DNA of 37,084 nt from a virus. The notes below the pieces were generated by a model. It did not search any database. It worked only from the letters and a program-made list of their open reading frames with translations, and was not told the origin of the DNA. The stretch covers positions 1 through 37,084 of the IMG/VR virus record IMGVR_UViG_3300035670_000673; one strand, 5' to 3'. Below, piece by piece: positions 14,240-34,859 of the stretch; within the stretch, counting starts at the first letter, position 1; the number at the start of each line of letters is the position of its first letter. A program made the position numbers and the translations under genes.

Positions 14240-14347
14240 CTAATTTAAGGGCTTTTTCGTATGCCGTGCGGTAAAACTTTGCGCTACGATTAGGGCGCAC
14301 ATTGCGCCGCACCATACGCCTATTAGGAAAATCAGGAAGTAGGCCAT
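14240..14347 (-). CDS. 35-aa single-span membrane peptide
   Basis: A short frame encodes MAYFLIFLIGVWCGAMCALI then VAQSFTARHTKKPLN: one hydrophobic helix of about 22 residues with two cysteines, then a short basic tail. It starts inside the 3' end of the tyrosine recombinase gene (16-base overlap) and ends 21 bases before the next start, so the position fits a real coupled gene. The function is unknown; such peptides in phage early regions may be anti-host or superinfection factors. Confidence 0.45.
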   Translation of the reverse strand: MAYFLIFLIGVWCGAMCALIVAQSFTARHTKKPLN

Positions 14348-15411
14348 TTGCCTTTAATTTTTTTTGGTTCATCATAATTGTCAAAAATTTCTTGTAACTT
14401 ATCTCCGTCTGAAATGTGCGGAAGGATAAATCTCTCTCTAAATAGCTCCTTTGCCCCGGTAAAGTCGTCGGATGTAATGTAGTAGTCTTGTAATACGCGG
14501 CGGTTTTCGTGCCCGGTAAACCAACGCGCGACGCTTTCCGGTGTCATGCCCCGCTGTACTAAATACGATGCCCCGGCGCTCCTGAAAAGGTGCATTGGAC
14601 GGTGCACCTTCCAAAGCGGAATTTCAATGGTTTCGCCCTCTATGTTTGTCCCCTGAATCGTCGTTCGGCGCAGGAATTGATCTGAGTTCAGCATTGCCCG
14701 GACAAGTTCAACGCAGCGTGCTTCTGTTAGGACAAGTCCGGTTGGATGCTTGAGCAACTTTTCCCCAGGACTGACATGGTAGCGGCGCATGATCTCCCGG
14801 ACAAGCTTTCGTGGTACCGGCGTTTGCATTACCTTCTTTGTCTTTTTGGTCATCCGCATAACCCAAGTACAGGGCTGCCCCATAAACTCGCCGTCTTTTA
14901 AATCTGATGTGCATATCTCAAGCAAATCGCTAATACGCCAGCAGGTGTAAAGGGCGAGTTTTGCGATAAGCACGCCGTGGTGCTTACCGGGGTTCATGGT
15001 CAGGATGTGGCGCACTACATTGTCCGGAATTTTCAGCTTTGCGAATTGTGCCGCTTCCCGTTTTTCCTTCGGCATGGTCAGCTCTATGCCAAAATCCCGT
15101 CGCGCATAGTTTACGATCATCCGGATAGTCCGGATATATAGCCTTCGCGTAACGGTTCCCAGTTTATGAAAGTCTTTAAGCCAAGTCATAAAGTCCCTTA
15201 CATAGTCCTGAAAGGCTTTAATGCGTTCGCGTCGCTGCTCAACGGGAATACCCATGATGTCGTAGTCCGCAAGGTTTATGTCCCGCCCCGTGTTCTTATC
15301 GAACATGTTCAGCTTATGCTGAACTGCCTTGTAGTTCGTCAATGTCCTTTTTTCGAGTTCATTCTCCGCAAAATAGGAATCAAAAAGAAAATCAAAATCA
15401 ATTTTTTCCAT
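14332..15411 (-). CDS. Tyrosine recombinase / integrase
   Basis: This 359-aa enzyme is a site-specific tyrosine recombinase. The N-terminal SAM-like core-binding domain covers about residues 1-125. The catalytic domain shows all expected residues: Arg159 in TCWRISDLL, Lys near 190-193 in MTKKTKK, the His274-x-x-Arg277 pair in HLFRSAGASYL, His301 in WFTGHENRR, and the nucleophile Tyr310 or Tyr311 in VLQDYYITSDD. It could integrate the phage, resolve multimers, or invert a segment. No attachment site or repressor gene was recognised in this window, so lysogeny is not established. It lies three bases after the HTH-membrane gene, in the transcription unit that starts at the 16406-16436 promoter. 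Confidence 0.9.
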   Translation of the reverse strand: MEKIDFDFLFDSYFAENELEKRTLTNYKAVQHKLNMFDKNTGRDINLADYDIMGIPVEQRRERIKAFQDYVRDFMTWLKDFHKLGTVTRRLYIRTIRMIVNYARRDFGIELTMPKEKREAAQFAKLKIPDNVVRHILTMNPGKHHGVLIAKLALYTCWRISDLLEICTSDLKDGEFMGQPCTWVMRMTKKTKKVMQTPVPRKLVREIMRRYHVSPGEKLLKHPTGLVLTEARCVELVRAMLNSDQFLRRTTIQGTNIEGETIEIPLWKVHRPMHLFRSAGASYLVQRGMTPESVARWFTGHENRRVLQDYYITSDDFTGAKELFRERFILPHISDGDKLQEIFDNYDEPKKIKGKWPTS

Positions 15412-21832: not shown

Positions 21833-22204
21833 ATGAAAACACTCCTACTCGAAGGCGCAATATTCTTTGCTTTTATTGCGCTGAATTTGATCTATTACAA
21901 GCAAGTCTTAGCTTTTTTCAGAACGATCTACAAAAAGTTTGAAAGGCGAAATGTAAATGAGCACGGCGTGGAGTGCCCGGTGCCTCTGCGCTTTTGGCCT
22001 GAAGGCTACGGTTTTATGGTCTTAGACAAAAGAAAGACTTTCTACCGGGCTTACTTTTTCAATCGCGAACCGCAGCTCTGGACAGAAGAGGACGGTCAGC
22101 AGTATTGGATAGCGGAATATCCTTATGAGATAAAGTCCTTTAAGGATTTTGAAATTGAGCGTTTTATGAAAATTCCGCTTGATTTTTTAAAATGGGAAAG
22201 ATGA
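21833..22204 (+). CDS. Membrane-anchored unknown protein (123 aa)
   Basis: The N-terminus has one membrane helix (LLLEGAIFFAFIALNLIYYK) followed by a basic stretch (FRTIYKKFERR). The rest is a soluble domain rich in aromatic residues (RFWPEGYGFMVLDKRKTFYR). By the positive-inside rule the soluble domain is most likely cytoplasmic. The stop overlaps the co-chaperonin start as ATGA, so the two are translationally coupled. Function unknown. Confidence 0.55.
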   Translation: MKTLLLEGAIFFAFIALNLIYYKQVLAFFRTIYKKFERRNVNEHGVECPVPLRFWPEGYGFMVLDKRKTFYRAYFFNREPQLWTEEDGQQYWIAEYPYEIKSFKDFEIERFMKIPLDFLKWER

Positions 22205-22815
22205 GGACACCTGCAAATAAATATTTGATCTGCGTTGAAAAAGAACAAAAACTGGGCAAATTGTTCGTTCCTATTGCAAAGGGTGCAGAGGAAAGCGTCT
22301 TGCGTCCTGTAAGCGGGACGATCAAGGCAATGCCCATGAAGTTTACTAAGCAATTTGGTATTGCCTCTAATACGGGTTCTGCGATGCTCAACGCTGAAAT
22401 TATCTCTAAGAGTTTGACCGCTTTAAAGCAGGGCGATGAAGTGATAATTTCGTACATGGCAACGGACAGGGAAAACTTTTTTTATTCGACTGAGGAAGGC
22501 GATTTTTACATTGTCCCGGTGCATCATTTAATTGCGCTAAAGACAAAGGAAGCGCAACCTTATCAAGCGATTGCCGGCAAAGTCTTAATTAAGCCTTTAG
22601 AAAAAGCGGAATTTGAAAGTCAGTACTTAATTAGCCTCCATAAGAAAAAAGACCTCGGCGTTGGCGAAATCGTATCTTGTGCCGAAGGGATGCGGGAAAA
22701 GTATGCTCCTGGGCAAAAAGTGGTGTACTTAGAAAAACTCGCCGAATGGATTGAATTGGACGGGGTGAAGTACGATTTTGTTTATACCGGGGAAGTTTTA
22801 GCTTTGTTGGATTAA
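22201..22815 (+). CDS. Co-chaperonin with two tandem GroES-like domains (204 aa)
   Basis: I start it at ATG 22201, where it overlaps the previous stop as ATGA; an ATG at 22192 is also in frame. The C-terminal half (residues about 125-204) follows the GroES layout: AGKVLIKPLEKAEF, a short mobile-loop-like segment (ESQYLISLHKKKDLG), VGEIVSCAEG, APGQKVVYLEKLAEWIELDG, and the final YDFVYTGEVLALLD. The N-terminal half (about 5-114) repeats the same plan: NKYLICVEKE, GKLFVPIAKGAE, SGTIKAMP, KQGDEVIISY, and GDFYIVPVHHLIALK. A double GroES is known in chloroplast Cpn20; single-domain phage co-chaperonins such as T4 gp31 help GroEL fold the capsid protein. Here the gene precedes packaging and head genes. 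The fold call is from pattern reading. Confidence 0.75.
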   Translation: MRTPANKYLICVEKEQKLGKLFVPIAKGAEESVLRPVSGTIKAMPMKFTKQFGIASNTGSAMLNAEIISKSLTALKQGDEVIISYMATDRENFFYSTEEGDFYIVPVHHLIALKTKEAQPYQAIAGKVLIKPLEKAEFESQYLISLHKKKDLGVGEIVSCAEGMREKYAPGQKVVYLEKLAEWIELDGVKYDFVYTGEVLALLD

Positions 22816-23183: not shown

Positions 23184-23375
23184 ATGCAAAACAAAGTAAC
23201 CCTTTTAGAATACGGCGGAAGCGATAAAACGCACGCCCTCGCCGCTTGGTCGTCAACTTTCCTTGATCTTGATACGGAGATTCCGTTAAGTATCGAAGGG
23301 CGCGTGGATAGCTTAATTGATGCGATAAAAACCAAAGGCGGCAAAGTAAAAACCCCTGAGCAACTTATCGCTTGA
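23184..23375 (+). CDS. Small conserved-type phage protein (63 aa)
   Basis: This 63-aa protein has a core TLLEYGGSDKTHALAAWSST and a C-terminal helix (EGRVDSLIDAIKTKGGKVKT). Short proteins with a 'Y-A/T-L-A-A-W-S/T-S-T-F' segment are recurrent in Bacteroidetes phages near terminase or methyltransferase genes (recalled). The function is not known. The next gene starts four bases after its stop. Confidence 0.55.
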   Translation: MQNKVTLLEYGGSDKTHALAAWSSTFLDLDTEIPLSIEGRVDSLIDAIKTKGGKVKTPEQLIA

Positions 23376-23378
23376 TTA

Positions 23379-23906
23379 ATGGATGCGTCTCACGATCCGC
23401 ACACTTCGCCCTTTCGTGCTTCTTTTTTTATGTTTGCAACAACAAACGATATTGCAACGCATATTCAGTTTTTAAAGCACGCGGTGGCGATGCAGGCAGA
23501 GAATGCAGAGAGTGCAAGATATAAGGAACTGAAGGAGGATAAGTTTTATTTGCCGGAGGATTGGAAGGACTACGGAAATATTGGCCTTTATTGGTACGAT
23601 GAACTCTGTGAGAGTGCAAAAATAATGAACAGGAAATACCACTTCTGTTTGCGAGACCTGATCGCCGTCGGAATGCCAAAAGCAAGGGCAAAGGAAACAG
23701 CGCGGTACTTTAAGCTGTACAACTCACAAATCAACTCTACAAAGATGTTTTCTTTTGACGGGCTTATGCAGGTGTATTTTAAAAGACAGGCAAGCAAAGG
23801 CGCTCAAAGGGAAATCAGCGATATGGTTTCGGCAATGGTTGAAGAGGTAAAGAATATTCCGGGCAATCCCTTTAAGGCTTCACTGGAGGCTTTTGGGGTA
23901 AAGTGA
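23379..23906 (+). CDS. Unknown helical protein (175 aa)
   Basis: The frame opens at ATG 23379; an internal ATG at 23430 (MFATTNDIATHIQFLK) may be the true start because the first 17 residues look unstructured. The protein contains FYLPEDWKDYGNIGLYWYDE and ends with SAMVEEVKNIPGNPFKASLE. It is mostly helical and aromatic. I recall similar proteins in Bacteroidetes phages, always unnamed. It lies in the packaging-side operon ahead of the methyltransferases. A regulatory or terminase-accessory role is only a guess. Confidence 0.6.
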   Translation: MDASHDPHTSPFRASFFMFATTNDIATHIQFLKHAVAMQAENAESARYKELKEDKFYLPEDWKDYGNIGLYWYDELCESAKIMNRKYHFCLRDLIAVGMPKARAKETARYFKLYNSQINSTKMFSFDGLMQVYFKRQASKGAQREISDMVSAMVEEVKNIPGNPFKASLEAFGVK

Positions 23907-23908
23907 AA

Positions 23909-24008
23909 AAAGATGCTTACGATAACGAATGAAGATTGCATGGAGCTTATGAAACGCTATCCCGATAAGCATTTTGACCTTGCTATTATTGATCCGCCGT
24001 ATGGGATA
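23909..24008 (+). repeat. Direct repeat copy A (5' end of methyltransferase 1)
   Basis: This 100-base segment, from just before the ATG to just past the DPPYG codons, matches 24565-24664 at about 97 of 100 positions (three substitutions found by eye). The similarity then drops abruptly. It marks a tandem duplication whose ends have been kept nearly identical. Confidence 0.85.
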
Positions 24009-24563
24009 GGGCAGGACGGCAGTAAAAACCATACCAGGGGTAAATTATCCAAGGCTAAGGATTATAAAAGTTTTTCGGGCAAAGACTTAAAGCCACCGGA
24101 TAAAGAATTTTTTGCCGAATTATTGAGGGTATCGAAAAATCAAATTATTTGGGGAGCAAACCATTTTGTCGAAAACATACCAAATGCAAATAGTAGTTGT
24201 TGGATAGTGTGGGATAAAGAAAATAGTGGCGATTTTGCGGACTGTGAATTAGCTTATACAAGTTTTAAAACCGCTGTAAGGAAATTTTCTTTTATGTGGA
24301 ATGGTATGCTTCAGGGTGATATGAAAAATAAAGAAACCCGCATCCACCCCACCCAGAAGCCCGTCGCCTTGTACAAGTGGCTCCTGCACAACTACGCCAA
24401 GCCCGGCGACCTTATTCTCGACACCCACATGGGATCGGGCTCAATAGCTATCGCCTGCCACGATTACGGATACGACCTGACCGCGTGCGAACTTGATTCG
24501 GAGTATTATCAAGCTGCAATGAAACGCATTAACGCCCATGTTGCACAACAAAAACTGTTTTGA
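23913..24563 (+). CDS. DNA adenine/cytosine-N4 methyltransferase 1 (beta class, 216 aa)
   Basis: The protein begins MLTITNEDCMELMKRYPDKH and has motif IV DPPYG at residues 27-31. A variable central region (about 35-140) should recognise the target. It then shows motif X (HPTQKPVALYKWLLHNYAKP) and motif I (LDTHMGSGSIAIAC), which binds S-adenosylmethionine. The order IV - target region - X - I is that of beta-class N6-adenine or N4-cytosine methyltransferases. No restriction endonuclease is adjacent, so it is probably an orphan enzyme protecting phage DNA from host restriction or timing packaging. A paralogue follows directly at 24569. Confidence 0.88.
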   Translation: MLTITNEDCMELMKRYPDKHFDLAIIDPPYGIGQDGSKNHTRGKLSKAKDYKSFSGKDLKPPDKEFFAELLRVSKNQIIWGANHFVENIPNANSSCWIVWDKENSGDFADCELAYTSFKTAVRKFSFMWNGMLQGDMKNKETRIHPTQKPVALYKWLLHNYAKPGDLILDTHMGSGSIAIACHDYGYDLTACELDSEYYQAAMKRINAHVAQQKLF

Positions 24564-24564
24564 T

Positions 24565-24664
24565 AAAGATGCTTACGATAACCAATGAAGACTGCATGGA
24601 GCTTATGAAACGCTATCCCGATAAGCATTTTGACCTTGCTATTATTGATCCGCCGTATGGAATA
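24565..24664 (+). repeat. Direct repeat copy B (5' end of methyltransferase 2)
   Basis: This segment is the partner of 23909-24008. The 3' ends of the two genes also share an identical 31-base stretch (24534-24564 and 25205-25235). Confidence 0.85.
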
Positions 24665-25234
24665 AACATGTCTCAAAATTTATTTAAAAACGGGCAAAAC
24701 TGCAAAAACAATGGTTACAAAGAGCATTTGGATAAAGACTGGGATAAGCAAATACCTAAAAAAGATTATTTTGACGAACTTTTTAGGGTTAGCAAAAATC
24801 AAATTGTTTTTGGAGCAAACTACATGACTAAATATTTACCCGAAAGCATGGGCTGGCTTGTTTGGAATAAAATTCAAAGGGATTTTAGCTTTGCAGATGG
24901 CGAACTCGCTTGGACAAGTTTTAATAAAAAATTAAAAATATTTGACTACGGAAGGGCTTGCGAAAGCGGATTCGCCCCTAAGCTAACAGACATTGAAAAA
25001 CCTTTTGCAAATATTCACCCAACTCAAAAACCTATCGCCCTTTACAAATGGCTCTTACACAACTACGCAAAACCCGGCGACCTTATTCTCGACACGCATA
25101 TAGGTTCAATGTCAATAGCAATAGCCTGCCATGATTACAACTTCGATTTGGTCGGCTGTGAATTGGACGGCGAATATTATGAAAGGGGGATGCAAAGGGT
25201 GAATGCCCATGTTGCACAACAAAAACTGTTTTGA
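24569..25234 (+). CDS. DNA methyltransferase 2 (beta class, 221 aa), paralogue of neighbour
   Basis: This is a second beta-class methyltransferase with the same N-terminus and DPPYG motif, an unrelated central target-recognition region (KNGQNCKNNGYKEHLDKDWD onward), and the same HPTQKP and C-terminal core. Motif I is altered: LDTHIGSMSIAIAC has Met where the first enzyme has Gly in GSG, which might affect cofactor binding. An in-frame TTG lies nine bases before the ATG. The pair likely arose by duplication with replacement of the middle, giving two sequence specificities. Whether copy 2 is active is uncertain. Confidence 0.85.
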   Translation: MLTITNEDCMELMKRYPDKHFDLAIIDPPYGINMSQNLFKNGQNCKNNGYKEHLDKDWDKQIPKKDYFDELFRVSKNQIVFGANYMTKYLPESMGWLVWNKIQRDFSFADGELAWTSFNKKLKIFDYGRACESGFAPKLTDIEKPFANIHPTQKPIALYKWLLHNYAKPGDLILDTHIGSMSIAIACHDYNFDLVGCELDGEYYERGMQRVNAHVAQQKLF

Positions 25235-25458: not shown

Positions 25459-25675
25459 GCTAAATATCGGGGACACACTCCTTGTCGGCGATATTGTTGT
25501 TGAGCAGCGAAGCGGAATGGATGTTCGCTATACGGTTTATAAGTCTAACCCTAAGACGGTTAGCGCTTATTCGGAGTATATGAAAAGGCGCACGTTTCCT
25601 TTAGAGTACGCTGAAGGCTTTAAAGGGCACATGTGCAAATATCCGGCAAAGGTTTATAGATACGATAAAAATTGA
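25442..25675 (+). CDS. Unknown small protein (77 aa)
   Basis: It starts at ATG 25442 (MKKLTELNIGDTLLVGDIVV). The protein looks like a small beta barrel (I-G-D-T-L-L-V-G-D turn, alternating strands) with a Tyr/Lys-rich end. An upstream extension in this frame overlaps the 73-aa gene and is low in complexity, so it is not used. Function unknown. Confidence 0.5.
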   Translation: MKKLTELNIGDTLLVGDIVVEQRSGMDVRYTVYKSNPKTVSAYSEYMKRRTFPLEYAEGFKGHMCKYPAKVYRYDKN

Positions 25676-25680
25676 ATTTT

Positions 25681-26691
25681 ATGCAAAAAAGGTTTATCAT
25701 TGGTTTTGCAGGGCAGATGGGCAGCGGTAAAGACGCTGCGGCAGTGATTGCCCAGCACGCTTATCCTGAGCTTGGCTTTGTGCATGTTGCTTTTGCGGAT
25801 GCGTTAAAAGAGGCTTATTCCCTTATGACGGGCAGAAAGTTTTTGCCGTACAAGGAATTTAAGGAAAGTATTTGCCCGGTCTTTAAAATACCGGTACGGG
25901 AAGTTTTACAGCGTATGGGCACGGATGCGCTGCGCAACAACTTTGACAAAAACATCTGGATCAACATCTTGGCAAACCGCTATCCGACGCAAAATTTGAT
26001 TATCTCCGATGTGCGCTTTGACAATGAAGCCGCTTGGATAAGGCAAAACGGTGGAACGATTATCCGCGTGGAGCGAACGGACGGTATGACCAAAAGCATC
26101 TGGGCAAACCATGAAAGCGAAGGCGGGGTGAAGGGGGATTTTACCGTGGCCAATGATTTTTCGCAGAACGGTTTTCTGCGCTTTAAGGCTACGGTGGAAG
26201 GTATTTTACAGACGATTACCGGCCTTGAGGTAAAGAAAAAAGTCGAGCTGCCTGAGTTTGCCTCGCCTATCGAGGCGGTTGATTATTGGATGAACGAATT
26301 TGATGTTTTTGAAAATGGACCTGCCGAAGCGCACAAGATTTACTTAAAGCTCGTTCAGGAGGAGTTAAACGAAGTGATGAACGAAAAATTCGGATCGCAA
26401 AGGCAGGCAGAGGAAATTTGCGATTTGCTCTGGGTAACGATTGCCCTTGCACTTTGCAGTATGAACGTTGAGCACATTGTTGCTTACATGAAGGTGTTGT
26501 TCCAGGCCAATATGTCAAAGGCAACAACGCGCTTGGACTTGGTTAATGCAGAGTGCAATAAGGAAGAAAACAGGGGCAAGCTCGAGGTAAGAAAGTCTGA
26601 ATCCGGGCGTTATTACATTGTGGACAAAGAGACGGGTAAAATTCAAAAAGGGCCGGTGTACGAAAAATTTACGCTCGATGGGTTATTTTAA
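25681..26691 (+). CDS. Deoxynucleotide monophosphate kinase fused to MazG-like pyrophosphohydrolase (336 aa)
   Basis: Start at ATG 25681. Residues 1 to about 180 are a P-loop kinase like T4 gp1: GFAGQMGSGKDAAAVIA with the P-loop at 11-18, FADALKEAYSLMTG, RMGTDALRNNFDKNIWI and IISDVRFDNEA. It would phosphorylate deoxynucleoside monophosphates. Residues about 195-280 form an all-helical MazG/HisE-type domain: YLKLVQEELNEVMNEKF with the E-E-x-x-E cluster (227-231), then AEEICDLLWV with E-x-x-D (245-248), which would hydrolyse NTPs or dNTPs to monophosphates. A short phage-typical tail follows (ESGRYYIVDKETGKIQKGP). Joining the two activities in one chain suggests channelled remodelling of the nucleotide pool. 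Confidence 0.82.
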   Translation: MQKRFIIGFAGQMGSGKDAAAVIAQHAYPELGFVHVAFADALKEAYSLMTGRKFLPYKEFKESICPVFKIPVREVLQRMGTDALRNNFDKNIWINILANRYPTQNLIISDVRFDNEAAWIRQNGGTIIRVERTDGMTKSIWANHESEGGVKGDFTVANDFSQNGFLRFKATVEGILQTITGLEVKKKVELPEFASPIEAVDYWMNEFDVFENGPAEAHKIYLKLVQEELNEVMNEKFGSQRQAEEICDLLWVTIALALCSMNVEHIVAYMKVLFQANMSKATTRLDLVNAECNKEENRGKLEVRKSESGRYYIVDKETGKIQKGPVYEKFTLDGLF

Positions 26692-27322
26692 AGACGGCGA
26701 TTTTCGCTATATGCGATATAAAGTGTACCGGGCAAAAGACTATGGCGCAACCGGCCTTGATACGGTAATGGCCATGCGGCGTATAACGCAAAGAAACCGC
26801 ATGAAGATAGGGGCGTACTTTGCCTATATGTACGATGCCAACTCGCCGGTGCCCAGACGGGTGCAGGATTTAAAAGAGCGCAAAGCAGTTGCCGCAAAAC
26901 TTGCCGGATTTGACTTGACACAAGCTGAAGAGTACAATCTTGTCAGTCAGATTTTTGGCTTGTCGGCAGAGGTCTATGTTGACATAGCAACTGAGATGCT
27001 CCGGGCGCAGCACAACCGCGATTTTTCAAGGATTTCTGCATTAGAGAAATTCTTTGACGAGTGCGTTGAGAAAATGTTTGCTATTGTCGAGGAAGGCGAC
27101 AAGATGGATGCAAAGAAAGTCTTAGACGCAATGACTGTCAAGGACGGACTTAGAAAATACATGAAGGCGACAAGCGAGGAACTCGAAGGGCTTTATGCTA
27201 AGATATACGGTGGCGACAAGCAATTAGAGGAACTTGTCGGGCAAAAGATGTCGTATTCGCCGGAACTTGTCGCAGGTCTTACGGAAGCAGAAGATTATGA
27301 CGCAAAAGAATTTGAGTGGTGA
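26678..27322 (+). CDS. Candidate small terminase subunit (214 aa)
   Basis: Start at ATG 26678 (MGYFKDGDFRYMRYKVYRAK), which overlaps the previous gene by 14 bases. The protein is mostly helical. An N-terminal part with basic residues (MAMRRITQRNRMKIGAYFAY) is followed by a helical core and an acidic end (TEAEDYDAKEFEW). It overlaps the large terminase start by 26 bases. The small terminase, which recognises packaging sites, commonly precedes TerL, so this is the best candidate, but I see no firm HTH and would call it by position only. Its second half is dense in CTTGTC/GACAAG words. Confidence 0.5.
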   Translation: MGYFKDGDFRYMRYKVYRAKDYGATGLDTVMAMRRITQRNRMKIGAYFAYMYDANSPVPRRVQDLKERKAVAAKLAGFDLTQAEEYNLVSQIFGLSAEVYVDIATEMLRAQHNRDFSRISALEKFFDECVEKMFAIVEEGDKMDAKKVLDAMTVKDGLRKYMKATSEELEGLYAKIYGGDKQLEELVGQKMSYSPELVAGLTEAEDYDAKEFEW

Positions 27323-29381
27323 TAAGAAAGCTTGGCAGCTTGTCGGCGAGGGCAAATCGGCTTATGTCGCTTGTCCTGTTCCGACAGGCTACTCAAGTAC
27401 GGTAATTCAGGGCGTTGAAATAGCTATTCCGCCGGAAGGGTACGTCTTTGATCCGACGACAAGACAAATGGTGTATATAGGGGTTGATAAAAAAAATACG
27501 GAAGAGGATGACTTTTACTGGACGCGGCAGGGCTTGCCAAAATGGTACGCCGAAAAGATTGCAGATGAGGCCATAAAGCAGGCGCAGGACCCGGGCTATT
27601 TTGACGTGGACGTGGAGAATTTTCGTCAAGGCGCTTGGCTTAGGCGTTTGGGCGGCTGCTGGTTTGCAAATGGCAAAGGCGGAAATGCGACCTACATTAC
27701 CGGGCTTCATTACTTTTATCTCGAGTGGTGTTTTATTGCGGCGTATGGAAATAAGGGCTATCCGTCTTTTCGGGAAACCGATAGGCGGTTTTTTCTTTTC
27801 CTGGAACATGTAATGCGAAACCCGAATTGCTTTGGCACGGTTTTGCTTACAAAACGTCGGATGGGCAAAACGCAAATGAGCGTAGCCTTCGGTCTTGAGG
27901 CTGTTACCCGGACAAGTTTTGCAAACTTTGGCATTCAGTCAAAGACGGATGAGGATGCACATAAGGTGGTTTTTAAGGATAGCGCGATCCGGATGTTTGC
28001 CCGTCTGCCGGACTTTTTTAAGCCCGTACACGACGATCGCCGCCTTGCCAATATCTCCAATACCTTAATGTTTAAGCCAAAACAAACCGACCTGGAAACC
28101 TTCAAGTCGGGCAATTTCTTAGGCGGCTGGGTAGAGCATAGGAGTAGCTCAGAGACGGCATTTGACGGAACCAAGCTACTTCGATACGTTGGCGATGAAG
28201 TCTTTAAGACGCGATCCGGTGTGGACGTGTACGAACGCTGGAACGTTGTCAAGTTCTGCCTTATCGTGGACGGGAAAATTCGCGGAAAAGCGATGCTTAC
28301 CTCGACGGTTGAGGAAATAGAAGGCAGTACGGATAACTACGTCAAGATGTATTCCGACTGCGATCAATTAAAGCTCGACGATGAAACGCACCGGACAAAG
28401 ACCGGGCTTTTTCGGTATTTTATTTCGGCAGATGAAGCACGCGACTTTGATAAGTACGGTCAGGTAGATAGGGAGAAAAACCGCGATAGGATTATTGCAG
28501 AGCGAAAAGCGTACAGCGACGATGTGATGGGTTATAATAGTATCATCCGAAAAGAGCCGCTTACGGTGGAAGAGGCGTTTAGGTTTTTAGGCAGGGAAAG
28601 CATTTTTGATGTGGCGAAAATATCCGATCAAATTGACGCTATCGTCTGGAGGCAGGATGAATTTACAGAGCGCGGGAACTACGTCTGGGAAAGCTATGGC
28701 AAAAGCGTGCGCTGGGTGCCGACGCAAAAAGGAAGATGGTTAAGGGTAAAAGCAGATGTGCACCCGCATGAATCTTTGAGTAGTGAAAGCCCCGGATATA
28801 GGACGGACTATCAACCGGGCGCAACTGATCTATACTGCTGCGGCATTGACCCGTTTTCGCACTCTAAGGTAGAGGGAAAGCAAAAATCGGACGGCGCTTT
28901 TTATATCAAGCGCAAGCACGATCCGCTAAAGCCGGATACGACAGATATGTTTGTGGTGCAGTACATTTATAGGACGCAGGAGGTAGAGGCGTTTTATGAA
29001 GATGTCTTTATCACGCTATTTCATTACGGCTGCTTAGGCCTTATCGAAAATCAGAAAATTGGCCTTGTCGGATATTTTGAAAATGCCCGGGTACAGAATT
29101 ATTTGGTCAAGCTAAAGAATCAAAAAAACTACGGCATTGCCGCCTCGCGGAAAACAACGCAGGCTATGTGCGAGCTAATTGAAAAGTACATTTACGATAA
29201 CATTCATAAGGTCTATTTTATAGAACTCCTCAAAGACTGGGCAAACTTTGATATCGAGCGCACGCAGACTTATGATGCGGCAATGGCCAGCGGCTATACG
29301 CTACTTGCGGATTCTAAGATTTTGCTTAAGAAGGGCGCTGAAAAAGCGCTAAAAATAATTGACATCAACGATTTATTTTAG
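27297..29381 (+). CDS. terL: Terminase large subunit (TerL, 694 aa)
   Basis: I start it at ATG 27297, inside the end of the previous gene. This ATP-driven motor packages DNA into the prohead and cuts it. The ATPase shows a Walker A variant LLTKRRMGKT (residues 183-192) and Walker B LLRYVGDE (Asp300-Glu301). An adenine-binding or arm region precedes it (YITGLHYFYLEWCF). The C-terminal nuclease begins at CCGIDPFSHSK with its first acidic residue, and later ENQKIGLVGYF and DAAMASG fit the RNase H-like fold. The length is on the large side, as in crAss-like and other Bacteroidetes podovirus-like phages. A promoter follows its stop at 29391. Confidence 0.9.
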   Translation: MTQKNLSGDKKAWQLVGEGKSAYVACPVPTGYSSTVIQGVEIAIPPEGYVFDPTTRQMVYIGVDKKNTEEDDFYWTRQGLPKWYAEKIADEAIKQAQDPGYFDVDVENFRQGAWLRRLGGCWFANGKGGNATYITGLHYFYLEWCFIAAYGNKGYPSFRETDRRFFLFLEHVMRNPNCFGTVLLTKRRMGKTQMSVAFGLEAVTRTSFANFGIQSKTDEDAHKVVFKDSAIRMFARLPDFFKPVHDDRRLANISNTLMFKPKQTDLETFKSGNFLGGWVEHRSSSETAFDGTKLLRYVGDEVFKTRSGVDVYERWNVVKFCLIVDGKIRGKAMLTSTVEEIEGSTDNYVKMYSDCDQLKLDDETHRTKTGLFRYFISADEARDFDKYGQVDREKNRDRIIAERKAYSDDVMGYNSIIRKEPLTVEEAFRFLGRESIFDVAKISDQIDAIVWRQDEFTERGNYVWESYGKSVRWVPTQKGRWLRVKADVHPHESLSSESPGYRTDYQPGATDLYCCGIDPFSHSKVEGKQKSDGAFYIKRKHDPLKPDTTDMFVVQYIYRTQEVEAFYEDVFITLFHYGCLGLIENQKIGLVGYFENARVQNYLVKLKNQKNYGIAASRKTTQAMCELIEKYIYDNIHKVYFIELLKDWANFDIERTQTYDAAMASGYTLLADSKILLKKGAEKALKIIDINDLF

Positions 29382-32570: not shown

Positions 32571-34859
32571 ATGGAACCGATATTTCCGTCCGCAAATATT
32601 GACCCGCGTAAGAAAGATAAGGCTTATGCTTTGCAGTACTGTCGTGCTGCGTGGCAGTCTTATTCTTCCGGCGGATGGAACTCGCTTTATTCAAACCGCA
32701 ATAAGTACCGGGAACTTACCGATTACGCCCTATCAAAGCAAAGCATTAGCCGCTATAAGAAAATCATCAAAGCGGACGAAAGCCCGGACCCGTCCTACTC
32801 CAACATGAACTGGGCACCGCTTGCTATTTTGACCAAATTTCGCGAACTCGCCCTAAGTATTACTAAGCGCTCAGATTACGACATCTTAGCTACTCCGATA
32901 GACCCAAAATCGCAAGGACAAATTGACCGCTATTTTAAAGAGCAGGAGGCAAAAATCCGTATGCGGGACGCGCTCAAAAAAGTTGCGCCGGACATGGTAG
33001 AAATGTCCCCGGTAAGGCAAAAAGAAAGCGAACCCGCAGACTTAGAGGAACTCGAGGTACAGCGGATGTACTCGTTTAAGCACGCCCTTGCAACGGAAAT
33101 GGAGCAATGGATGCAGCAAATTTTCCTGATGAACAACATGGATCAGGTGCGTGCAGAGGTAAAGCGCTGTCTTTTTGACTACGGTATTGGCGGCGTAAAA
33201 GAGTACGTTGACCAAGACGGCATTATAAAAATACGCGCTGTCAACCCGGCCAACATGATTTGTTCCCGGGTAACAAGGCGCGATTTTAAGGACGCGGAAT
33301 TTATCGGCGAAATCACTGAAATCAATATTCAGGATTTGGCCGAAATGGCAAACGGCGAACTTGACGACAAGGATTTAGAGGATATAGCAAGGAAGAGCGT
33401 CAACGGAGAAAGCGCCTTTACCGGCATCAACATGTGGGCAAGGAGCAACATGCGCGATAGCAAGGTGCGTGTCATGGAGATTGAATGGTTGTCATACAAC
33501 TCCCTTGCTTATGAAGAAAGTGTTGACAAGTATGGCAACATCCATTTGATTAGGACAAGCCCGGGCAAAGGCGACAAGCAAAAACTTGTCAAGGTTGTCT
33601 ATCAGGCCAAGTGGGTAATGGGCACGGATTATATTTTTGGATTCGGCCTTGCTACGAACATGAAGCGCAAAAGAAGTGCGCTCCAGGAGACCAGCTTGTC
33701 ATATCATATCTTTGCGCCAAACTTTGACTACTTCGATATGTCAAGTGTGGGTAAGGTCGAGCAAAGCATGAACGTCGTTGACCAAATTAACTTGGCGTAC
33801 TACCGTCTGCAACACGTTATCGCAAAAGCCCGGCCAAAAGGCATAATGATCGAAATAGGCGCACTCGAAGATGTGCCTATCGGTAAAGGCGGTCAGGCCT
33901 TTACGGCAAAAGACTTGATTGACATATACGAAAGTACCGGGAATATCTACTATCGCCTGCGCGACATGGAAGGCAATGCCGCAAATTACCGGCCTATCAC
34001 GGAACTCGAAGGCGGCATTGGTGCTCAAGCTCAGGAGTACTTCAATATCATTCAGCAGAACATACAGCTTTTAAGGGACGTTATCGGGCTTAATGAGGTA
34101 ACAGATAGCTTTGCCGGGCAAAGGACCTACTCAGCGGCAGTAAACGCCGGAATAGAGGCAACCAACAATTCCCTTTATGGCATAATCGAAGCCGACCGGG
34201 AACATATGCAAAGTGTCGCAGAGAGTATTTCGCTTCGCATTCAAACCCTTGCCCGGACGAAAAACATCAATAAGTCTTACCTATACTCACTTGGAAAACC
34301 TACCCTTGATTTTATGAAGCAAGGGGATTTGGAACTATCAAGTGTTGAGTTTGGTATTTTCTTAGACGCGATCCCTACGCCTGAAGAGCGCGGTGCGTTT
34401 AAAATGCGCCTGGAGAAATTTATTGATTCAGGGCAACTTGACATTGACGATGCGATTATGATAGAGGGCTTGCGCTCGCTTAAAACGGCGAACGGTATTT
34501 TGGCCTATAAGGTCAAAAAGAAAAGGGAACGGGCGGAGCAGCAGGCTATGATGATGCAACAGCAAAACGCGCAAATCCAACAGCAAAGCGCAATGATCGC
34601 CGAAGAGGAAAAGCGCAAAACGTTGCAGTTGGAGTATCAGCTCAAGATGGAGCTTTTACAGGCAGAGGTGCAAAAGGCAATGGCCGTTGAGCAAATGCGC
34701 CTGGAGGCAGAATTTGTCAAGAACAAAATGATCGCGGACGCTTCGCTGACAAACGAACAGCTAAGGGCGGAAAGCAAAGAATATATTGCCGAAACAATGG
34801 CTTCGGTAAGAAGGGCAGGACGCAATCCGGCACAGGTAGCGTCAGATACAATGAAATAA
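32571..34859 (+). CDS. Portal protein (762 aa)
   Basis: This large protein would form the dodecameric ring through which DNA enters the head. The N-terminal part (KYRELTDYALSKQSISRYKK, SYSNMNWAPLAILTKFRELA) and the middle with repeated 'stem/wing' helices fit portal proteins of podovirus-like Bacteroidetes phages. The C-terminus is a long Gln/Glu/Ala-rich coiled coil (QQAMMMQQQNAQIQQQSAMI), suggestive of a barrel. It starts the head operon and is followed 12 bases later by the scaffold-like gene and then the capsid gene. A dense patch of CTTGTC/GACAAG words lies at about 33360-33800. The assignment is by length, composition and order. Confidence 0.82.
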   Translation: MEPIFPSANIDPRKKDKAYALQYCRAAWQSYSSGGWNSLYSNRNKYRELTDYALSKQSISRYKKIIKADESPDPSYSNMNWAPLAILTKFRELALSITKRSDYDILATPIDPKSQGQIDRYFKEQEAKIRMRDALKKVAPDMVEMSPVRQKESEPADLEELEVQRMYSFKHALATEMEQWMQQIFLMNNMDQVRAEVKRCLFDYGIGGVKEYVDQDGIIKIRAVNPANMICSRVTRRDFKDAEFIGEITEINIQDLAEMANGELDDKDLEDIARKSVNGESAFTGINMWARSNMRDSKVRVMEIEWLSYNSLAYEESVDKYGNIHLIRTSPGKGDKQKLVKVVYQAKWVMGTDYIFGFGLATNMKRKRSALQETSLSYHIFAPNFDYFDMSSVGKVEQSMNVVDQINLAYYRLQHVIAKARPKGIMIEIGALEDVPIGKGGQAFTAKDLIDIYESTGNIYYRLRDMEGNAANYRPITELEGGIGAQAQEYFNIIQQNIQLLRDVIGLNEVTDSFAGQRTYSAAVNAGIEATNNSLYGIIEADREHMQSVAESISLRIQTLARTKNINKSYLYSLGKPTLDFMKQGDLELSSVEFGIFLDAIPTPEERGAFKMRLEKFIDSGQLDIDDAIMIEGLRSLKTANGILAYKVKKKRERAEQQAMMMQQQNAQIQQQSAMIAEEEKRKTLQLEYQLKMELLQAEVQKAMAVEQMRLEAEFVKNKMIADASLTNEQLRAESKEYIAETMASVRRAGRNPAQVASDTMK

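Follow-up and report, generated by a model that had tools for sequence, protein, structure and literature searches.

A phage protein with two GroES-like domains in tandem, a probable co-chaperonin with double-length relatives upstream of the terminase gene

The window (the whole stretch of DNA analysed, a virus record of 37,084 bases) encodes a protein that carries two GroES-like domains in tandem, and the gene neighbourhood of its double-length relatives in other phages is conserved. Most likely, with a probability of roughly 0.7, the protein is a two-domain phage co-chaperonin which caps GroEL via its mobile loop or loops and takes part in the folding of late proteins; the binding to GroEL, the composition of the ring and the clients are what we infer. 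Coordinates of the features are given in Table 1.

Table 1. Position of the tandem GroES-like gene, its two domains and the related packaging and head genes in the window.
Feature	Position	Strand	Basis
Tandem GroES-like (Cpn20-type) co-chaperonin gene (putative)	22201..22815	+	ORF, conserved start and sequence, full-length fold match to chloroplast Cpn20
N-terminal GroES-like domain, residues 1–116	22201..22548	+	hhalign to GroES, strand order in the model, full-length superposition
C-terminal GroES (Cpn10) domain, residues 117–204	22549..22812	+	PF00166, hhalign, single Cpn10 structures
Terminase large subunit (TerL)	27234..29381	+	phrog_6681, E = 8e-78
Portal protein, possible client	32571..34859	+	phrog_6547, E = 4e-63; tblastn to phages

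The reading frame begins with ATG 22201 and ends with the stop codon 22813–22815, giving a product of 204 amino acids; its 5' end reaches into the stop codon of the gene before it. An alternative ATG is possible upstream, at 22192, and this position is also open. We prefer 22201 because the conserved start of two relatives, L002 and L004 (MKTPSNKYLI), aligns with it. Relatives of the window protein in IMG/VR are few, namely L001 (98% identity), L002 (60%) and L004 (61%), which are referred to below with the window as the window lineage. The base changes between the window and L001 comprise 13 synonymous and 5 nonsynonymous ones, a ratio that fits the expectation for a protein under selection. 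A chance reading frame is ruled out by conservation, and both the frame and the tandem organization are confirmed as more than chance.

The C-terminal half is the clearer match to GroES, as a sequence-only reading of this DNA had stated. It matches the Pfam Cpn10 model PF00166 at residues 122–202, just below the cut-off (E = 3.5e-4, 21.0 bits at a cut-off of 21.1, which is exceeded by the relatives from phi38:1 and phi46:3). In hhalign comparison with a profile of single-domain GroES (11 sequences, of which 10 are from phage records and one is E. coli GroES) it aligns in the GroES register with P = 2.1e-6, the reversed control giving 0.13; all hhalign P-values reported here apply to single comparisons. 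The N-terminal half has no Pfam match in the window protein or in any other member checked. With the same profile its residues 1–116 are placed onto columns 7–91, again in the GroES register, at P = 3.4e-4 and a probability of 38% (P = 0.55 for the reversed control). When the N-halves of distant double-length relatives were compared with this profile, the window lineage being excluded, P was 9.6e-4 (0.028 when reversed), and the N-half of the elemoA tandem protein matches the single-domain PHROG_3188 at 3e-4. Two in-register matches to a GroES HMM are found in L002, L004 and many distant relatives, the first match being insignificant alone. Internal comparison of the two halves of the window protein by hhalign was not significant (P = 0.31). 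The hydrophobic triplet of the mobile loop reads LFV or LIV in the N-domain and YLI or VLI in the C-domain; the GG-I-V-L signature of GroES loops is absent from the loops of the window protein, which contain no GG.

The structure was predicted by AlphaFold2 from 49 double-length homologues (alignment A6). The resulting model (pLDDT 79.4, pTM 0.78) replaced one made with three close sequences only (pLDDT 37). Both halves repeat one strand order, with strands 7–12, 37–45, 80–83, 93–96, 101–106 and 110–114 in the N-half and 127–132, 152–160, 173–177, 182–186, 189–195 and 199–203 in the C-half. Residues 20–33 (22258–22299) at the position of the N-domain mobile loop are disordered and have very low model confidence, as expected of a flexible loop. 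The N-domain also bears an insertion in the roof region at about residues 46–78. The best PDB match found by Foldseek is 7ekq chain R, named in the PDB as Cpn20 co-chaperonin subunit (E = 1.4e-7, 218 columns, TM 0.58/0.60). VIA-align superposes residues 1–204 of the model on residues 11–194 of this chain with Z 11.2 and rmsd 4.1 over 159 residues. Single Cpn10 chains match the C-half (117–204) at Z 8–10, and T4 gp31 does so at Z 8.6–8.9. The GroES-like domain of the alcohol-dehydrogenase type was considered and rejected, such chains scoring Z 5–6, below Cpn10. Among predicted viral structures the best four matches are double-length or longer, with alignments exceeding 200 columns, and include Chaperonin cpn10 of Cellulophaga phage phi18:3.

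According to the model, the window protein is predicted to have the GroES beta-barrel fold. The half-by-half profiles together with the full-length match to Cpn20 show that a single chain contains two consecutive GroES domains, which is a statement on architecture and not on common descent; for the N-half the support comes from hhalign and from its share of the full-length superposition. The architecture proposed by the sequence-only reading (two tandem GroES-like domains, the GroES strand order in both halves and a mobile-loop-like segment) is thereby supported. Structure prediction, suggested there as a check, was run on the whole protein and in substance agrees with the proposal, the tandem Cpn20 being the best match over the full length.

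That reading named only single-domain phage co-chaperonins (T4 gp31, CocO) and cited the double form from chloroplast Cpn20. A double-length phage form does have precedents: PHROG_13932 and many annotated phage genes are of the same kind. PHROG_13932 (“co-chaperonin GroES”, double-length) has members in Pervagoviridae, Pachyviridae and Elemovirus and on hundreds of environmental contigs, where the gene usually lies immediately upstream of the one for terminase. A gene for 180–200 amino acids annotated as co-chaperonin GroES stands directly before TerL in phi38:1 (gp089, which matches PHROG_13932 at 2e-82), elemoA (gp33) and Panino; phi46:3 gp092, annotated likewise, is one gene before TerL. 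The same gene, labelled hypothetical protein, is found one gene before TerL in the environmental phage ctfjg026 (MW202828), and its product has 540 relatives among 545 IMG/VR pattern matches. Chaperonin cpn10 is listed among the core genes of Pervagoviridae by Bartlau et al. (PMC8776804), so the gene as such was already known. We found no published description of the tandem GroES architecture in phages, which is weak evidence of absence given the thin coverage of subscription journals. The double form is a common, under-described variant of phage co-chaperonin and is not unique to the window phage. Annotated GroES genes were not found in the ~5.5 kb before TerL of the Pachyviridae phage Gundel, filled by a large structural gene, or before TerL of crAss phage cr4_1, and the elemoA tandem protein has no match in plasmids. 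Single-domain phage GroES genes retrieved with E. coli GroES as query were set aside as not double.

The window protein matches the PHROG_13932 profile at E = 0.012 over residues 89–202 only, and its hhalign match to the wider Pervagoviridae-type family is nearly full-length and weak (P = 0.0098). As the direct similarity to this type is weak, common descent is argued from architecture, fold and gene position. Search of the phage collection with the window protein by tblastn gave chance matches only, and a weak match in IMG/VR (L103) turned out to be a chance match inside an unrelated ORF. In most relatives the C-domain mobile loop is short; a GG-I loop motif is common in the N-domain of relatives. 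The N-domain of the distant double GroES proteins also contains an invariant HHN at residues 66–68 (L016:3349–3909 and relatives), followed by the highly conserved VFKFYND..G..KSGKS; HHN is absent from the window lineage. A neighbour of 231 amino acids upstream of TerL in L105 (1784–2476) has borderline similarity to the double GroES proteins (E = 4.7e-4) and an LFHHN motif, and no other TerL from beyond the window lineage is as similar to that of the window as the one of L105 (37% identity).

In the window TerL lies 4.4 kb downstream of the GroES-like gene on the same strand, with ThyX, methylases and a kinase in between; L002 and L004 have about 2 kb between the two genes. The double protein is encoded upstream of TerL in 63 of the 64 environmental loci with enough upstream DNA, a count that describes only this group, chosen by likeness to the window TerL; it ends there 232–1420 bases before the matched part of TerL. 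The nearest relatives of the window TerL and portal (~24–29% identity) are those of Flavobacterium elemo phages, Cellulophaga phi38:1/phi40:1 (Pervagoviridae), Maribacter phage Panino and Pachyviridae, and the portal sequence places the phage near Pervagoviridae/Elemovirus. Searches of the collection of bacterial genomes (GTDB) with the window protein and its TerL yielded no relatives, so no host was assigned. The integrase at 14332–15411 (phrog_1) indicates that the phage may be temperate, yet no GTDB relative was found.

The genes between the GroES-like gene and TerL show some features of their own. ThyX (23184–23906) is interrupted in frame by TGA 23373; the corresponding codon of L001 is TGG (Trp). 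Of 18 genes counted in the window genome 10 end with TGA, more than with any other stop codon, which makes recoding unlikely; the interruption would be due to a nonsense mutation or to an error of assembly. The DNA methylase genes at 23913–25234 are neighbours and both match phrog_67; no such pair was observed upstream of TerL, behind the GroES-like gene, in L002 or L004. The deoxynucleoside monophosphate kinase match of 25672–26691 is limited to residues 1–182, and the C-terminal part looks MazG-like by eye, so a fusion is possible.

GroEL (PF00118) was found in 19 of 25 records searched; the six others are four records of the window lineage, the record of L098 and the 18 kb fragment of L105. 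A study of infected cells detected the GroEL of phi38:1 in methylated form (PMC13288928). Each of the 21 records that do not belong to the window lineage has a single-domain Cpn10 over the cut-off as well as the double protein (borderline in L105); such a Cpn10 is present in none of the 4 that do. Phages with the double protein mostly carry GroEL and single-domain GroES as well, a three-part set resembling that of chloroplasts, of which the window lineage shows the double protein only. Phage GroEL was not found in the four window-lineage records, which may be fragments and may thus only seem to lack it.

GroES caps GroEL with seven mobile loops. The tandem protein would cap GroEL through its own mobile loop or loops, helping late proteins of the phage to fold, and the best candidate clients would be terminase, portal or capsid. 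In the window lineage it would work with the GroEL of the host, and host GroES subunits possibly join the cap, bringing its domains to seven, one for each GroEL subunit. In the relatives with phage GroEL and single GroES, three double subunits and one single subunit would likewise make seven domains. Cpn20 works as tetramers or in mixed rings with Cpn10 (PMC4242682; PMC5780408), and in E. coli the Cpn20 of the apicoplast can take the place of GroES (PMC3542282). From the place beside TerL in the relatives, packaging and head proteins would be the likeliest clients; this adjacency fits the client idea and is not proof of it. A broader picture, which we offer tentatively and hold to be possible rather than probable, is that a three-part chaperonin set operates in a large group of phages, mixed seven-domain caps folding proteins of the packaging motor and head. 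The window lineage would then be a stripped-down version where the tandem protein alone redirects host GroEL, and phages and plastids would have evolved their tandem forms independently.

Several points speak against the co-chaperonin reading: the loops of the window protein lack the GG-I-V-L signature, most relatives have a short C-domain loop and, in the N-domain, an invariant HHN with no link to any known function of GroES, the direct similarity to the Pervagoviridae type is weak, searches of the window lineage revealed no phage GroEL, and the gene does not adjoin TerL here. It is conceivable, if rather unlikely, that the GroES fold has been reused in a dedicated packaging or assembly factor which binds TerL or portal directly, without GroEL. 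Such a factor would agree with the constant place beside TerL in the relatives, with their shortened C-domain loop and invariant HHN and with the divergence of the N-domain from Cpn10. Most relatives already have a single-domain GroES by their own GroEL, and the double protein may therefore serve another purpose. However, chloroplasts keep single and double co-chaperonins together, both acting on the chaperonin (PMC5780408); besides, the N-domain retains a flexible segment as its mobile loop, the GG-I motif is common in relatives, and the C-domain matches Cpn10 structures well.

Much less probable is that the C-half alone is a true co-chaperonin domain, fused to an unrelated beta domain that makes up the N-half. 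The N-half escapes Pfam in every member tested and its hhalign probability is modest, but its end-to-end alignment to GroES is in the right register while the reversed controls fail to align so, the strand order in the model is the same in both halves, and the 159-residue superposition on Cpn20 is twice what the C-half alone can give; the match of the elemoA N-half to PHROG_3188 argues in the same direction. That the protein caps a protease such as ClpP and not a chaperonin, like the Chlamydomonas Cpn11/20/23 ring in 7ekq, can practically be dismissed: the best structural match does come from a ClpP complex entry, but that is because this entry is the one with a solved Cpn20, a scan of window proteins showed nothing of Clp type, and the relatives carry GroEL.

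Tandem co-chaperonins were previously described for plastids and the apicoplast, for which the even number of domains facing a seven-fold chaperonin is a standing question. Taking the window protein and its relatives as co-chaperonins, hundreds of phage contigs and some culturable phages (Cellulophaga phi38:1, Flavobacterium elemo phages) would be new systems for the study of ring stoichiometry, of mixed caps and of client specificity, and the tandem design in phages suggests that packaging or head proteins are the likely clients. The annotation is also refined: genes called “co-chaperonin GroES” or “cpn10” in such phages encode two-domain proteins.

Compared with known systems, the window protein shares with bacterial GroES (PF00166) the match of its C-half to the Pfam model, whereas GroES has a single domain and the N-half is not recognized by this model. 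T4 gp31 and other single-domain phage GroES proteins have the same fold and are also phage-encoded, but gp31 is single-domain and heptameric (PMC6318259), whereas each chain of the window protein comprises two domains. PHROG_13932 (phi38:1 gp089, elemoA gp33, phi46:3 gp092, Panino) resembles it in double length, in both halves being GroES-like, in being encoded by phages and in the terminase/portal neighbourhood; in contrast, these proteins are only 11–20% identical to the window protein in alignment A6, their phages mostly carry GroEL and single GroES, and the window gene is 4.4 kb away from TerL. Closest in design is Cpn20 of chloroplasts and the apicoplast (7ekq chain R; PMC5780408; PMC3542282), with two GroES domains head to tail in ~200 residues and the best full-length match in the PDB. 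Cpn20 is a plant or algal organelle protein, ~21% identical over the aligned part; unlike it, the window protein, known from its sequence and model, has a roof insertion in the N-domain and loops of another sequence than GG-I-V-L.
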